Shown: piece after piece, positions 15,346 through 19,911 of the stretch | Numbering within the stretch: the first letter of the stretch is position 1 | Layout: every line of letters starts with the position of its first letter | Origin: a virus | Reading direction: 5' to 3' (one strand) | IMG/VR virus record: IMGVR_UViG_3300020000_000065 | Location: 1 to 20,404 of that record | DNA length: 20,404 nucleotides | The notes under the pieces: generated by a model | What the model saw: only the letters and a program-made list of their open reading frames with translations | Told to the model about the DNA's origin: nothing | Database searches by the model: none | Position numbers and translations under genes: made by a program

Positions 15346-17376
15346 ATGGGCATACGATTCTATGGAGGTTTGCCGATCAGAGTGCCGCCCGCTACGGTGT
15401 TGCCGAGTGCGTTGCCGGTCAACACCGTGCCAGCGGGACAGACTACCTACATCGACACGACGAAGCGCTTTCGAGTAGCGGACAGCAATCCTGTCAAGGT
15501 TGCCGATAACGATTCACCACTCGTCACAGCGACGCTTACTTGTTCTAGCGGCATACTCGAAGTTATACCGAATGTGGGCGTGATCGTTTCCAACAACATC
15601 AGCACTCGCGTTGTTGTCATGGGCTCAACTACGAACGTAAATCGCGCATTCGACGGTTTACGTTGGACACCGACACCGGCATTCAGTGGCACTGCAACGA
15701 TCACTCTGCGCACGAGCGACGGTGACAACATTGATACCGACACTTTCAACGTCGTTGTGTCAGGTACAGCACCGCCTTATGTGCCGCCTGGGCCAACGAA
15801 CTCTGTGCCGTCAGGGACGAAGATGGTGCCGTATGGCTACACGCTCAACTTCTCAGGCGACGGCATCACTGTGTATGACCCTGATGTGGCGACGCTGACA
15901 ACGACGCTCACGATGGTCGGTGGCATTGTTCACGTGACGCCAAGCGGCGCAGCCGTGACCGGCAACGATACAGGGCTCGTCACTCTCGTGGGCACACAGA
16001 CGCAGATTAGTGCAGCACTCGGCACGTTGATCTTCACGCACAACGGCGGCTTCTGGGGCTACGCTAAGATAACAGTGTCGACAAACGATGGTCCGAAGAC
16101 AAGTGCGAACGACATCAACATTGTTGTCGGTGTGCCTGCACTGCCGCCTGTGCAACTCGTGCCGCCACAACCGTTCTCGGTATCTGGCTTTACTGCGGGC
16201 TCGAACATCAAGTTCACGAGTGGTCCCGGTCCTGACAATTCGATGAAGATCACCGCTGCCTATAAGATGTCGCTTCGCACAACGATCTCGTGCGGTCACG
16301 GCATCATTAAATATGACGCCAATGCCACGGGCTACACGAATCTCGCCGATGGTTGTCCGACGAAGGTGCTCTATGGTTATTGGAACGGTGCCGCTGCGAC
16401 AACGATGCGACAGATAAACAATTATTGGAATGTCATTGGTATGGCGCGTGCACGCAATGCCGGTTCCGGCCTGGGCGGCGGTGCTGTGTCCTGGCCCTAT
16501 GCAACGGGCAATGCGGGCGTGCCGCTACCGCACGATGTTCAATTCATTCGAGCCTGCGGCAAGCCTGTCTTGCTCGTTGTCGGCGGGCCTGGGTATGGCT
16601 TCAACTACACGACGCGAGCGCAGTCGGATGCCTTGCTTGGCTCGCTCATTCCGTTGATCTATGCAATGGGTGGCGTCGACGGCATCGACATTCAGTTTTA
16701 CGACGGCGACTTAACTGGCTTGAGCCTCACAACGGAAGCTGTCTATATCGCGCAGCAATTGAAGGCAGCATACGGTTCGAAGTTCATGATTGTTTATTCA
16801 TTCAGGCAAAACCCAGCGTCGCAGCAAGTGAAGGACATTGCTGTCGCTTTGCACAATGCAGACTGCTTGACGTTAGTTCAACAGATATTCATGGACAATG
16901 CAGCGAACAAAGTGGCGAATGCTGTATCAAGCAAGGTTCTTCAGTTCATAACGGACACGCAAATTCCACGTAACAAACACATGATTGGCATGTCGCATAA
17001 CTATGACTACACGAACAATCTCACCCTAGCAGAAGCCGTGAATGCATATCAACAAACGAATACGGTCAACACCGCCTTTCGTGGCGTGTCCTGTTGGTCT
17101 ATTGACCTAGATGCTGCGGTAACTGGCTCATTCAGCACAGAGTTCAAATGGACGCAGCTTGGCTATACCTTGACTGACAAAGGTACGGCACTCATAACAG
17201 GACACTCAACGAGACAAGTGACGCTCACGGGCGACTACCAACAAATTAACTCGGCGTTGGCATCGTTCTACTATTATCCGGACCTTAACTATCAAGGCCC
17301 GGACCCTGTTGTCATGACGACAACCGATGGCACGCTATCGGACACGGACTCGATCAATGTCACTGTGATGAATTAA
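15346..17376 (+). CDS. Tail fibre-like protein: cadherin-like repeats with a GH18-like, apparently inactive, barrel
   Basis: This 676-residue protein has two cadherin-like beta-sandwich repeats (about 27-142 and 147-263), each ending in a strand with SDG or NDG and DT- or D-rich turns. A third repeat seems to start near 270-325 and finish at about 603-676 (TTTDGTLSDTDSINV). Between its halves lies a GH18-like barrel (about 340-600): KVLYGYWNG opens it, VVGGPGYGF (about 411-419) matches the SxGG strand, DGIDIQFYDGD (445-455) matches the DxxDxDxE strand, and CWSIDLD (583-589) matches the final barrel strand. In the catalytic motif the third Asp is Gln450 and the acid Glu is Tyr452, so chitinase-type catalysis is unlikely and glycan binding is more probable. 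A GAGG lies just before the ATG. Position at the end of the tail genes fits a receptor-binding fibre. Confidence 0.78.
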   Translation: MGIRFYGGLPIRVPPATVLPSALPVNTVPAGQTTYIDTTKRFRVADSNPVKVADNDSPLVTATLTCSSGILEVIPNVGVIVSNNISTRVVVMGSTTNVNRAFDGLRWTPTPAFSGTATITLRTSDGDNIDTDTFNVVVSGTAPPYVPPGPTNSVPSGTKMVPYGYTLNFSGDGITVYDPDVATLTTTLTMVGGIVHVTPSGAAVTGNDTGLVTLVGTQTQISAALGTLIFTHNGGFWGYAKITVSTNDGPKTSANDINIVVGVPALPPVQLVPPQPFSVSGFTAGSNIKFTSGPGPDNSMKITAAYKMSLRTTISCGHGIIKYDANATGYTNLADGCPTKVLYGYWNGAAATTMRQINNYWNVIGMARARNAGSGLGGGAVSWPYATGNAGVPLPHDVQFIRACGKPVLLVVGGPGYGFNYTTRAQSDALLGSLIPLIYAMGGVDGIDIQFYDGDLTGLSLTTEAVYIAQQLKAAYGSKFMIVYSFRQNPASQQVKDIAVALHNADCLTLVQQIFMDNAANKVANAVSSKVLQFITDTQIPRNKHMIGMSHNYDYTNNLTLAEAVNAYQQTNTVNTAFRGVSCWSIDLDAAVTGSFSTEFKWTQLGYTLTDKGTALITGHSTRQVTLTGDYQQINSALASFYYYPDLNYQGPDPVVMTTTDGTLSDTDSINVTVMN

Positions 17377-17685
17377 ATGTGGGATGAAGTACAGCAATGG
17401 ATACTTCGCTTCGCCGGTGTTGCGGGTGCTCTCGTGTCGATGCGCTTTGTGAGTGGGTCACTCTTCGAGCGTGTGCTCATGGTGATCGGCGGCGCGTTCT
17501 TCTCGTTCTACGCAACTGAGTGGGTCGCGCAATGGCTCGCGTTGCCGCAGGGGCTCACGGGCTTTCTCCTGGGGCTGTTCGGCATGTCGGTGCTCTCTCG
17601 CGTGTGGGAGTGGGTTCAATCGACGAATGCTGTGTCGGGCTTTCTCGATGCATGGTTGAATAGAGGCAAGCCGAAGGATAAATGA
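17377..17685 (+). CDS. Small membrane protein, putative holin
   Basis: This 102-residue protein starts at the base after the fibre-gene stop. It has two or three hydrophobic segments (about 11-27, 32-54 and 58-76) and ends in a short basic tail (RGKPKDK). Size, topology and the position just before an endolysin gene fit a phage holin, the protein that permeabilises the inner membrane at a set time. Sequence alone cannot show which of the three membrane proteins in this cassette is the true holin. No dual-start motif of the lambda S type is evident; the second Met is at residue 22. Confidence 0.65.
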   Translation: MWDEVQQWILRFAGVAGALVSMRFVSGSLFERVLMVIGGAFFSFYATEWVAQWLALPQGLTGFLLGLFGMSVLSRVWEWVQSTNAVSGFLDAWLNRGKPKDK

Positions 17686-17686
17686 C

Positions 17687-17989
17687 ATGATGCTCGATGC
17701 TTCTTTCGTGTCGTCGGCGTGCTGGTTCTTCATCGGCACGACGGCTATCGTCGCGAGCTTCAACGGCATGGTGCGCAAGACCGTGCTCGAATGCATTGCA
17801 CTCGGCGGCGTCAGCCTGGGCGCGTTCTCACGATCCTACTATGTCTACATGCGGCAAGAGACGGACCCTGATGCGCTTTGGATTTCGATTGCGCTCGCGA
17901 TCTATTGCCTTGCCATGTGGTACAAACTCGTGTGGGTTATTCCACACCGGCCCGATTACAAGCCGCCACCGAAATCGCCTTACTACTGA
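17687..17989 (+). CDS. Small three-segment membrane protein of the lysis cassette
   Basis: This 100-residue protein is separated from the previous gene by 1 nt and has AAGGA about 9 nt before its ATG. Two consecutive ATGs (17687 and 17690) could both serve. Hydrophobic segments lie at about 9-25, 33-50 and 64-86, followed by a proline-rich tail (HRPDYKPPPKSPYY). It could be a second holin, an antiholin, or an accessory membrane protein. Its stop overlaps the endolysin-fusion start (TGATG), so the two are translationally coupled. The family is not recognised. Confidence 0.65.
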   Translation: MMLDASFVSSACWFFIGTTAIVASFNGMVRKTVLECIALGGVSLGAFSRSYYVYMRQETDPDALWISIALAIYCLAMWYKLVWVIPHRPDYKPPPKSPYY

Positions 17990-19251
17990 TGGCAAACATC
18001 ACGCTCACAGACTACATCGTCAAGCGCAATGTGCGGGCGTTCCTGTGGGCGATTCGATATGGCGAAGGCACGCAAGGCGAGAACGGATACCGCACGCTGT
18101 TCGGTGGTCAATTGTTCAAGGGTCCGGACGGTGTCTATGGCACGTTCGACGACTTCGCCGATCACCCGCGCATCAAGACGACGGTGACGCTGCGCAATGG
18201 CAAGGTCTACACGTCGACTGCGGCGGGCGCGTATCAATTCATCGTGCGCACATGGGACGGTGTTTGCAATCAATACGGCTTCATCAACTTCGAGCCACCG
18301 ACACAAGACCTTGCCGCTATCGCATTGATAGCTGGCCGCAAAGCACTCGAAGATGTTGTCGAAGGTCGCATCGACATCGCAGTTGCGAAGTGCAATAAAG
18401 AATGGGCTAGCCTGCCTGGGAGTCCCTACGGGCAACCCGTTGTCACGCTGGGAGAGTTCAAGCGAGAATACGAAGAGGCAGGCGGGCTGTATTTGAATGA
18501 ACAAGCGCAACCCTTGCCGATACCATTGCCACCGGAAGCAATCGCACTTGAGCCCAAATTGCCACCGGCTAACGGCAGCGAAGTCGTCGAGATTGCGAGA
18601 GGTAAAACGGCGGACATCGAGGCAAGCTACATACAGGAGAAGCAAATGCCTATACCCGCAGTTGTCGCGGCATTGTTGCCGACGCTCATTCAACTCGTGC
18701 CGCAGTTGACGAAGATTTTCGGCAGTGGCTCTGAGGTATCGAACCGCAATATCGCAGCGGCAGAAGCAGTGTTCACCGTGGCGAAGGATGCCATCGGCGC
18801 GAAGAATGAACAAGAGGTTGTCGAAGCGGTGAAGGCCGATCCTGTTCAAGCAACCATCGTCAAGAATGCTATCGAGAAGAACTACTTGAACATTCAAGAG
18901 GCGGGCGGCGGCGGCATCGAAGGCGCACGAGCGTACAGCGTCGCTGTCGCATCCATGCGCACGCCAGAGGGACAGCCGCTCTCGTTGCTCACGCAACCGG
19001 CCTTCGTGATCTCTATCGTCATGCTCGGGCTCGTTGTCATGATGGTGCTTGTCGTGCTGTTCCCGTGGGAAATATTTCGAGCGAACGGCGGACAGATTTA
19101 TACCGATGAAGTACGATTGATCGTGGTGACAGCCATCATCGGATCACTCTCGACGATAGGGGCTTTCTGGCTCGGATCGTCATTCGCAAGCCGTGGCAAT
19201 AACGCGAGTGGCTCTCGCACACGTTCAACCGATTCAGGAGCAATGCAATGA
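17989..19251 (+). CDS. GH104 endolysin fused to a holin-like membrane domain
   Basis: The start is the ATG overlapping the upstream TGA; the in-frame extension from 17878 lies inside the previous gene. Residues about 10-172 match lambda gpR, a muramidase/lytic transglycosylase that cuts the MurNAc-GlcNAc bond: GEGT with catalytic E26, ADHPR, STAAGAYQF, QDLAAIALI, and WASLPGSPYGQP. Lambda gpR is about 158 residues; here the gene continues for about 250 more. A Pro-rich linker (about 172-198) leads to a second region that starts at Met220, with an amphipathic LPTLIQLVPQLTKIFGSGSE, an acidic helical stretch, and two membrane segments (about 335-357 and 375-396) ending FWLGSSFAS, typical of stand-alone phage holin-like proteins. 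No signal peptide precedes the enzyme, so release or flipping across the membrane must rely on the membrane domain or the neighbouring holin candidates. Confidence 0.85.
   Translation: MANITLTDYIVKRNVRAFLWAIRYGEGTQGENGYRTLFGGQLFKGPDGVYGTFDDFADHPRIKTTVTLRNGKVYTSTAAGAYQFIVRTWDGVCNQYGFINFEPPTQDLAAIALIAGRKALEDVVEGRIDIAVAKCNKEWASLPGSPYGQPVVTLGEFKREYEEAGGLYLNEQAQPLPIPLPPEAIALEPKLPPANGSEVVEIARGKTADIEASYIQEKQMPIPAVVAALLPTLIQLVPQLTKIFGSGSEVSNRNIAAAEAVFTVAKDAIGAKNEQEVVEAVKADPVQATIVKNAIEKNYLNIQEAGGGGIEGARAYSVAVASMRTPEGQPLSLLTQPAFVISIVMLGLVVMMVLVVLFPWEIFRANGGQIYTDEVRLIVVTAIIGSLSTIGAFWLGSSFASRGNNASGSRTRSTDSGAMQ
18635..18648 (+). promoter_or_regulatory. Internal Shine-Dalgarno and start codon inside the endolysin fusion gene
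   Basis: AGGAGA followed by 5-6 nt and ATG lies in the coding sequence for IQEKQM, exactly at the linker-to-membrane-domain boundary. The start of the full-length gene has no comparable purine tract and relies on the TGATG overlap. Confidence 0.65.
18646..19251 (+). CDS. Possible nested holin-like protein from an internal start
   Basis: An in-frame ATG at 18646 (codon 220 of the fusion) lies 6 nt after AGGAG (18635-18639). This is a stronger ribosome site than the one before the full-length gene. The product would have 201 residues: MPIPAVVAALLPTLIQLVPQ at the start, two C-terminal membrane segments, and the FWLGSSFAS end. Free-standing phage proteins with this layout begin at just this point. 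The sequence shows the start signal. That it is used is inference. Confidence 0.55.
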   Translation: MPIPAVVAALLPTLIQLVPQLTKIFGSGSEVSNRNIAAAEAVFTVAKDAIGAKNEQEVVEAVKADPVQATIVKNAIEKNYLNIQEAGGGGIEGARAYSVAVASMRTPEGQPLSLLTQPAFVISIVMLGLVVMMVLVVLFPWEIFRANGGQIYTDEVRLIVVTAIIGSLSTIGAFWLGSSFASRGNNASGSRTRSTDSGAMQ

Positions 19252-19457
19252 AGATCGAATGTAGCGAAGGTTCAAGCGGCGTGTGGTCTTGGCGCTTCAA
19301 GAGCGACAACGGCGAAACCGTCATCGCCGAAGGCACGAAGACTTTCGAGTCGCAGGCAGAAGCGAAGAAGGCCATTGACGCATTCGCCGGATCAGTGGGC
19401 GTCAAGGCAAACGCGGTCAGCTATGTGCCGCTTGTGCCAGAGAAGGAAGAAGAGTAG
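19248..19457 (+). CDS. DUF1508 (YegP-like) small protein
   Basis: This 69-residue protein matches one copy of the DUF1508/YegP fold pattern: WSWRFKSDNGETVIAEGTKTF, then an Ala/Lys helix (SQAEAKKAIDAFAGSV), ending in an acidic tail. The domain is found in short bacterial proteins of unclear function. The ATG overlaps the fusion-gene stop (ATGA), and AGGAG lies 7 nt upstream, so it is the last gene of the late operon here. Its 3' end overlaps the convergent nuclease gene by 41 nt. A lysis role is not implied by the family. It could be a late-expressed moron or accessory gene. Confidence 0.75.
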   Translation: MKIECSEGSSGVWSWRFKSDNGETVIAEGTKTFESQAEAKKAIDAFAGSVGVKANAVSYVPLVPEKEEE

Positions 19458-19911
19458 GCAAGCGCTCGATCAGCGCTAGGGGCAAGGTAGTGCCCATGCG
19501 CGGGCCGCAGTGCCACGACGCGATCTGACGCAGGCGTGCGGCACTGGCGACGGCAAGGGCATCCATCTCCTGCGCCGTCATCCCTCGAAGGTCGACGAGC
19601 CATGTTGCCCGCTGATTGCCGATCAGGCACCAACAGCGCCCGCCCGCCCAGGTCCGGCGAGCCGCGTACACGATCTGAGATCGGCGCATGCCGTGACCCA
19701 GGCCGAGCACCTGGGAATCGTCCCGGCGTGCGGTGTCGCTGAACTTCAATTCGAGGCCCCCTTCAACACCGTCGATGCAGTAGTCAACGTCCGGCGTGCC
19801 GTCGTTGACGACGTTCTCGACGCGCTCGAAGTGAAAGCGCAGATGCATCGTCTGACAACTCTTCACGAGGTTGGGTCTGACGCGATCATGCCAGAAGCCG
19901 ACTTCATCCAT
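19417..19911 (-). CDS. PD-(D/E)XK-type nuclease
   Basis: This 164-residue protein carries a PD-(D/E)XK core: GTPDVDYCIDG with D41, then LELKF with E54 and K56, preceded by an FERVEN helix. After the core come GHGMRRSQIVYAARRTWAGGRCWCLIG and a hydrophobic strand, an order found in VRR-NUC and phage Holliday-junction-resolvase-like nucleases. It probably cuts structured DNA in replication or recombination, but the substrate cannot be told from sequence. It starts inside the end of the upstream gene (ATGGATGA, 8 nt) without a clear ribosome site, so it is coupled. Its C-terminus runs 41 nt into the opposing DUF1508 gene. Confidence 0.72.
   Translation of the reverse strand: MDEVGFWHDRVRPNLVKSCQTMHLRFHFERVENVVNDGTPDVDYCIDGVEGGLELKFSDTARRDDSQVLGLGHGMRRSQIVYAARRTWAGGRCWCLIGNQRATWLVDLRGMTAQEMDALAVASAARLRQIASWHCGPRMGTTLPLALIERLPTLLPSLAQAAHS
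19461..19495. other. Two adjacent small hairpins at the convergent gene end
   Basis: AGCGCT (19461-19466) and AGCGCT (19472-19477) form a 6-bp stem with a 5-nt loop. GGGCA (19480-19484) and TGCCC (19491-19495) form a second one. Neither is followed by a T-run on either strand and both lie in the 3' part of the minus-strand nuclease gene. They could attenuate transcription from the left but are not clear intrinsic terminators. Confidence 0.3.

Follow-up and report, generated by a model that had tools for sequence, protein, structure and literature searches.

An endolysin gene joined to a TeaA-type holin domain with a conserved internal start that very likely yields the holin alone

Introduction

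Holin and endolysin are normally encoded by separate genes, with the canonical endolysin kept free in the cytoplasm until lysis. The locus described here raises the question of whether a single viral gene can supply both lysis functions, as an enzyme joined to a membrane domain and, from a second start within the same gene, as the membrane domain alone. It lies in IMG/VR virus record IMGVR_UViG_3300020000_000065, the analysed stretch, termed the window below, comprising 20,404 nucleotides. An initial annotation of the window, made from its letters without database searches, had proposed that a Shine-Dalgarno (SD) motif and an ATG within the gene give rise to a holin-only product. We have examined the organisation of the lysis cassette, the affiliation of the two domains and the fate of the internal signal among close and distant relatives, and we consider how the two putative products might act.

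Organisation of the lysis cassette

The features of the cassette are listed in Table 1. The two small membrane protein genes that precede the fusion gene were each aligned as the window and four further loci, and for the second of them (17687-17989) no PHROG family match was found. The start codon of the fusion gene overlaps the stop codon of this upstream gene and lacks an SD motif of its own; it is a probable coupled start. At the other end of the fusion gene, the SD motif of the DUF1508 gene is located within the last codons of the fusion. The computed product sizes are 45.1 kDa when translation starts at 17989 and 21.0 kDa when it starts at 18646.

Table 1. Coordinates of the lysis cassette features in the window.
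Feature	Positions	Strand	Basis
Small holin-like gene, 102 aa, phrog_2359 'holin'	17377-17685	+	hmmscan E 2.5e-13
Small membrane protein gene, 100 aa, about 2 hydrophobic helices	17687-17989	+	hydropathy
TGATG, overlap of the upstream stop and the fusion gene's own start, without SD	17987-17991	+	
Fusion gene: endolysin, linker and TeaA-type holin domain, 420 aa	17989-19251	+	
Lambda-lysozyme-type catalytic domain	18016-18504	+	phrog_90 E 1.9e-39; PDB 1am7 E 1.2e-19
Glu26 codon	18064-18066	+	invariant 16/16
Proline-rich variable linker	18505-18645	+	alignment
Internal SD, AGGAG, spacing 6	18635-18639	+	kept in 16/18 close loci
Internal ATG start codon, residue 1 of the TeaA-type domain	18646-18648	+	
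Predicted holin-only product, 201 aa, 21.0 kDa, phrog_1544/TeaA relative	18646-19251	+	
Predicted transmembrane helix 1	19006-19062	+	hydropathy
Predicted transmembrane helix 2	19117-19173	+	hydropathy
DUF1508 gene, 69 aa, SD AGGAG, spacing 7	19248-19457	+	Pfam E 4.6e-5

Ahead of the lysis genes, positions 15346-17376 encode a protein of 676 amino acids which showed only a weak cadherin-like match in Pfam and no PHROG match; by eye, it appears to be built of repeats and to include a chitinase-like region. A 164-amino-acid open reading frame on the minus strand (19417-19911) carries, again by eye, a motif like that of small nucleases. At 100% identity, another locus (L001) encodes a fusion protein that matches the one of the window; it is situated on the 59,217-base IMG/VR contig IMGVR_UViG_3300042822_000005, and the window may therefore belong to a phage genome near that size.

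Affiliation of the two domains

The N-terminal part of the protein is an endolysin of the lambda lysozyme type (Table 1), and we take its Glu26 to be the catalytic Glu of that enzyme. The C-terminal domain, 201 residues long with two membrane helices predicted from hydropathy, is less readily placed. The trail leads to TeaA of Vibrio phage ICP1, which is annotated as a holin, and it passes through free-standing proteins of Vibrio phages and through weak matches to phrog_1544, with E-values of 6.4e-4 for the window domain and of 4.3e-5, 0.001 and 0.0086 for the distant relatives L036, L037 and L056, respectively; TeaA itself matches this family with an E-value of 1.7e-53. A profile-profile comparison (hhalign) between the fused domains and the free-standing family yielded a probability of 98.7% and an E-value of 1.5e-16 over 168 columns, while negative controls with two unrelated membrane proteins from this cassette gave 0.1% and 0.2%. 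Moreover, the internal Met of the fusion falls on Met1 of TeaA in the profile alignment. The GTA_holin_3TM family (PF11351) has reportedly been assigned to TeaA by remote homology, and a Pfam scan of the window protein at E-values up to 0.1 did not detect it, which is a weak criterion.

TeaA is described, in the accessible part of the report on it, as collapsing the proton motive force, as being triggered by energy poisons and as having the antiholin ArrA as its partner (PMC7182436). From the homology to this protein, we infer that the membrane domain of the window is probably a holin by function as well. Judging from the positive charges behind the last helix, both termini of the domain probably face the cytoplasm (N-in/C-in). 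Two AlphaFold models, with mean pLDDT values of 49.0 and 46.2, were too poor for use.

The internal start signal in the window

The signal itself is as the initial annotation had described it. An AGGAG stands 6 nt ahead of an in-frame ATG, exactly at the joint of the enzyme-plus-linker part and the two-helix membrane domain, and it is stronger than the signal at the gene's own start, the ATG at 17989 having no SD match of even 3 nt. SD matches were scored against an assumed anti-SD of the E. coli type, which may not be that of the host. Among the 119 other in-frame ATGs in the long open reading frames of the window, for which 14931 was treated as a gene start, none had a match of at least 5 nt at a spacing of 4-10 nt and five had one of 4 nt; among the other in-frame ATGs of 17 fusion genes, a match of at least 5 nt occurred once in 108. 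In the predicted RNA structure none of 70 positions sampled along the gene is as open as the region of 18646.

When the junction was recoded synonymously, an equally strong SD arose in 10-43% of the trials per gene for the 14 genes of the main clade, and over 17 genes the same procedure gave P 0.10-0.68 per gene. It is thus a weak test and, since recoding often restores the motif, a single gene alone is not decisive; it is the comparative result, presented below, that decides. One further in-frame ATG, near residue 168, was considered as a candidate start because it is preceded by an SD-like sequence in 9 of 14 close genes as judged by duplex energy. It was set aside, a 4-nt SD at normal spacing being present only in L005 and the window having no ATG at that place.

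Conservation among close relatives

A search with the membrane domain yielded 18 close loci, and in all of them the fusion frame is open across the joint and the internal ATG is kept. Where AGGAG is not retained, it is replaced by GGGAG in L003 and by AGGGA in L013, so that among the 14 distinct aligned genes the SD match extends over 5 nt in 12, over 4 nt in L003 and over 3 nt (GGA) in L013. Both the length and the sequence of the linker vary, and the stretch that stays constant beside the ATG is the part that encodes the SD. Throughout the 399 columns of the alignment, the internal start is the sole Met column with an SD match of at least 5 nt in at least 12 of the 14 genes. The codons CAG and GAG of the SD show no synonymous variation in the 13 genes, in each case, that keep the residue. 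This result lends support, in that of the 12 conserved Gln columns only the one in the SD lacks codon variation, but it is modest, as 5 of the 19 conserved Glu columns lack it too. There are also further windows of low variation, and the lowest synonymous variation of the fusion gene occurs at its 3' end, where the SD of the next gene lies.

A sequencing error as the cause of the fusion was rejected, given that the two parts are fused in 18 of 18 close loci and in 52 of 80 loci (the best 80 of 481) of the second set described below. Two scans of genome contigs produced no relative, and the membrane domains of four distant loci (L036, L037, L094 and L101) had no match among 50,697 phage records. 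One candidate, L039, was set aside because only a short segment at the C-terminus of a different protein accounted for its match.

Distant relatives and a set selected by the enzyme

Three more distant loci carry a comparable signal at the domain boundary. In L036 and L056, both with an enzyme of the lambda type, it reads GGAG-9-ATG and AAGGAG-6-ATG, respectively. L037 combines the same membrane domain with an enzyme of a different family (phrog_873) and has AAGGA-7-ATG; the retention of domain and signal beside an exchanged enzyme argues for a module to which the start belongs.

A second set was collected with the enzyme domain alone as seed, a procedure that selects for neither the signal nor the membrane domain, and the best 80 of 481 loci were used (L070-L149). 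In 52 of these 80 the enzyme is fused in frame to a TeaA-type domain; the others comprise 19 plain lysozymes, 5 truncated genes, 3 with other tails and 1 in which the two parts are out of frame. The lysozyme-TeaA fusion is common in viral contigs that have this type of lysozyme, at 52 of the best 80 of 481, as against no match covering 80% of the query among the 50,697 phage records. Subtraction of 14 main-clade members from the 52 left 38, removal of 4 duplicates left 34, and removal of L070, which is on the same contig as L056, left 33 non-redundant fused relatives. For L088, L095 and L102 the boundary was extrapolated by 26-27 profile positions. SD counts at the gene's own start in 34 relatives were excluded as evidence, overlapping starts having been preferred in picking them.

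A start codon is present at the boundary in all 33 of these relatives, drawn from the best 80 of 481 loci, and it is ATG in 27 and GTG in 6; the GTGs were accepted only when accompanied by an SD, while the ATGs were picked by position and not by SD. An SD match of at least 4 nt precedes 25 of the 27 boundary ATGs, and one of at least 5 nt precedes 19. The background at codon boundaries of the linkers is 91 of 1113 (8%) and 22 of 1113 (2%) for the same two thresholds, and control in-frame ATGs elsewhere gave 14 and 5 of 227. The corresponding binomial probabilities are below 1e-24 with the relatives treated as independent; as to their kinship, 37 domains form 26 clusters at 60% identity and the median pairwise identity of the domains is 32%. 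The distance from GGA to the start codon is 10 nt in 23 of the 32 fused relatives listed, and 6 of the 32 have their SD in a different codon register, which indicates that nucleotides are kept rather than residues. Predicted RNA openness at the internal start lies above the mean of the gene in 28 of the 33 relatives, and in 5 it is the highest value sampled.

Two relatives, L071 and L073, retain the fusion with an SD match of less than 4 nt, weak or absent. Relatives that keep the fusion and lose the signal had been named in the initial annotation as the observation that would speak against an internal start, and 31 of the 33 non-redundant relatives (from the best 80 of 481 loci, and including the 6 GTGs selected by their SD) show the opposite. 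With the SD and start kept in diverged relatives, and with the homology to TeaA beginning exactly there, the proposal of an internal start for a holin-only product is supported. L093 (2001-2927) and L128 (1775-2632), in which the same type of lysozyme is followed by an unrelated hydrophobic tail, form a small negative control (n = 2), and no ATG or GTG of either tail has an SD match of at least 4 nt. These two tails are perhaps closer to those of the Enc34-type tethered endolysins.

Unfused gene orders and the origin of the internal start

Free-standing TeaA-type genes start at the residue homologous to the internal Met, and several of them lie directly 3' of an enzyme gene. A single base is shared by the lysozyme gene and the TeaA-type gene of Xanthomonas phage PBR31. 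In Vibrio phage 1.251.O an amidase gene, and in Vibrio phage 1.133.O a peptidase gene, ends 2 nt ahead of the TeaA-type gene, and in PVA1 an annotated lysozyme is followed by an unannotated TeaA-type gene. No enzyme is annotated beside the TeaA-type gene in ICP1 and 1.161.O. In L100 (2504-2540) the lysozyme and TeaA-type genes are out of frame and overlapping, with GGAG-8-ATG at the homologous place, and this locus is either genuinely unfused or affected by a contig indel.

Given the homologous starts of the free-standing genes and the enzyme genes upstream of them, 18646 looks like the start of a once-separate holin gene that was kept after the fusion. Loss of the stop between two such neighbours would produce a fusion with the holin start left inside, as is found here.

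Proposed mode of action and alternatives

The conservation of SD and start across the fused relatives makes it very likely that one gene gives rise to two products, an enzyme-bearing holin of 45 kDa and a free holin of 21 kDa. Ribosomes that finish the upstream membrane protein gene would restart at 17989 and generate the 45-kDa endolysin with its C-terminal TeaA-type holin, while those binding the AGGAG of the linker would start at 18646 and generate the free 21-kDa form. Before triggering, the enzyme would be held on the cytoplasmic side, the predicted N-in/C-in topology implying that it stays inside until the membrane opens. Triggering of the holin would then open the membrane, and enzyme-bearing subunits at the lesion would reach the wall.

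Whether the long and short forms co-assemble is close to an even question. Mixed assembly is plausible because the whole holin domain is common to both products and because the products of known two-product endolysins often, if not always, associate, as stated in the accessible part of PMC9430671. That the ratio of the two products sets the timing of lysis appears rather doubtful. Tentatively, the fused loci could represent a widespread class of phages with holin and endolysin in a single nested gene, in which a weak coupled start yields the enzyme-bearing holin, a strong internal one provides an excess of free holin, mixed membrane rafts form, the lesion brings an enzyme with it and the balance between the two starts acts as the lysis clock. 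The clade's cassette also contains a separate holin-like gene upstream (phrog_2359, Table 1), and the fusion therefore need not be the sole holin; other holins may act in the clade.

A special case of the two-product reading would make the long form an antiholin, its bulky enzyme slowing the assembly of the short form and acting only after triggering. Dual-start holins such as lambda S do use a longer, inhibitory form, but the long form here has an intact enzyme domain with the invariant Glu26; we regard this as unlikely.

Somewhat less likely is a tethered endolysin of the Enc34, M4Lys and LysAP kind, in which the tail exports or anchors the enzyme itself and a separate holin form does not exist. 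The C-terminal membrane helices of those enzymes are important in lysis according to the accessible parts of the reports (PMC8943055, PMC7143992, PMC8879335). The tail of the fusion protein, however, corresponds to a complete TeaA-type holin, as long as the free-standing ones and equipped with a start, and in M4Lys and LysAP no strong internal signal marks the beginning of the tail. In addition to its part in the two-product scheme, the long form may work as a tethered endolysin.

It is improbable that only the 45-kDa protein matters and that the SD and ATG are leftovers of an ancestral holin gene. A leftover would be expected at first, free-standing TeaA-type genes with homologous starts being known, but it should decay, and the signal persists in 31 of 33 fused relatives (6 of them SD-selected GTGs; from the best 80 of 481 loci) although the linker peptide changes and the median domain identity is 32%. 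Least credible of all is a coding coincidence in which the end of the linker favours Lys-Glu or Gln-Glu, with codons (AAG GAG or CAG GAG) that resemble an SD and often give one on recoding, as it is opposed, among the best 80 of 481 loci, by the excess of SD matches at boundary ATGs over the linker background, by the SDs in another register, by the in-frame start codon that always comes next, by the uniquely invariant Gln codon column and by the lysozyme fusions with non-TeaA membrane tails that lack the signal.

Relation to known systems

A literature search, in which most subscription papers were out of reach, revealed no report of an endolysin-holin fusion in which a start for the holin is nested. 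The catalytic domain of lambda lysozyme R (PDB 1am7) is homologous to that of the fusion protein, and lambda R lacks a membrane tail. Dual-start holins, exemplified by lambda S, resemble the locus in that one gene with two starts yields two membrane products; their two forms differ by a few residues, the longer being inhibitory, and their starts are a few codons apart, whereas those of the fusion gene are 219 codons apart. TeaA of ICP1 (phrog_1544) is homologous over the whole domain and begins at the same position but, unlike the fused domain, it is encoded by a separate gene with that of the antiholin ArrA adjoining.

A natural holin-endolysin fusion from Clostridium sporogenes similarly unites both functions in one protein, though with a holin of the TpeE family, a C-terminal enzyme and a Gram-positive setting, and the accessible part of its report describes no nested product (PMC9527704). 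Enc34 ORF39, M4Lys and LysAP share with the fusion gene an N-terminal enzyme and C-terminal membrane helices; in M4Lys (237 aa) and LysAP (227 aa) the tail is much shorter, and the word 'internal' is absent from the main texts of the three papers (PMC8943055, PMC7143992, PMC8879335). In the two-polypeptide endolysins Lys170, CTP1L and LysIME-EF1 an in-frame internal start with its own ribosome-binding site lies between the domains, an arrangement that recurs, conserved, in the fusion gene. Their short product, as far as the accessible text describes it, consists of a cell-wall-binding domain, alone or together with a second enzyme, where the fusion gene has a relative of a holin (PMC9430671). 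Internal-start endolysins are established in phages that infect mycobacteria or Gram-positive bacteria (PMC9430671; reviewed in PMC6023083), and the survey of two-polypeptide endolysins, in its accessible part, passed over Gram-negative phages because such cases seemed unlikely there (PMC9430671).

At the locus described here the enzyme is very probably made joined to a holin while a second start supplies the holin alone, which places two key parts of lysis in one gene. This would extend internal-start endolysins from wall-binding tails to holins, and beyond the phages of the published survey, and it offers a lead on a question raised for the Enc34-type enzymes, namely the route by which a membrane-tailed endolysin reaches the wall. 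The fusion gene is thus a variant on two known themes, the two-product endolysins and the membrane-tailed endolysins.
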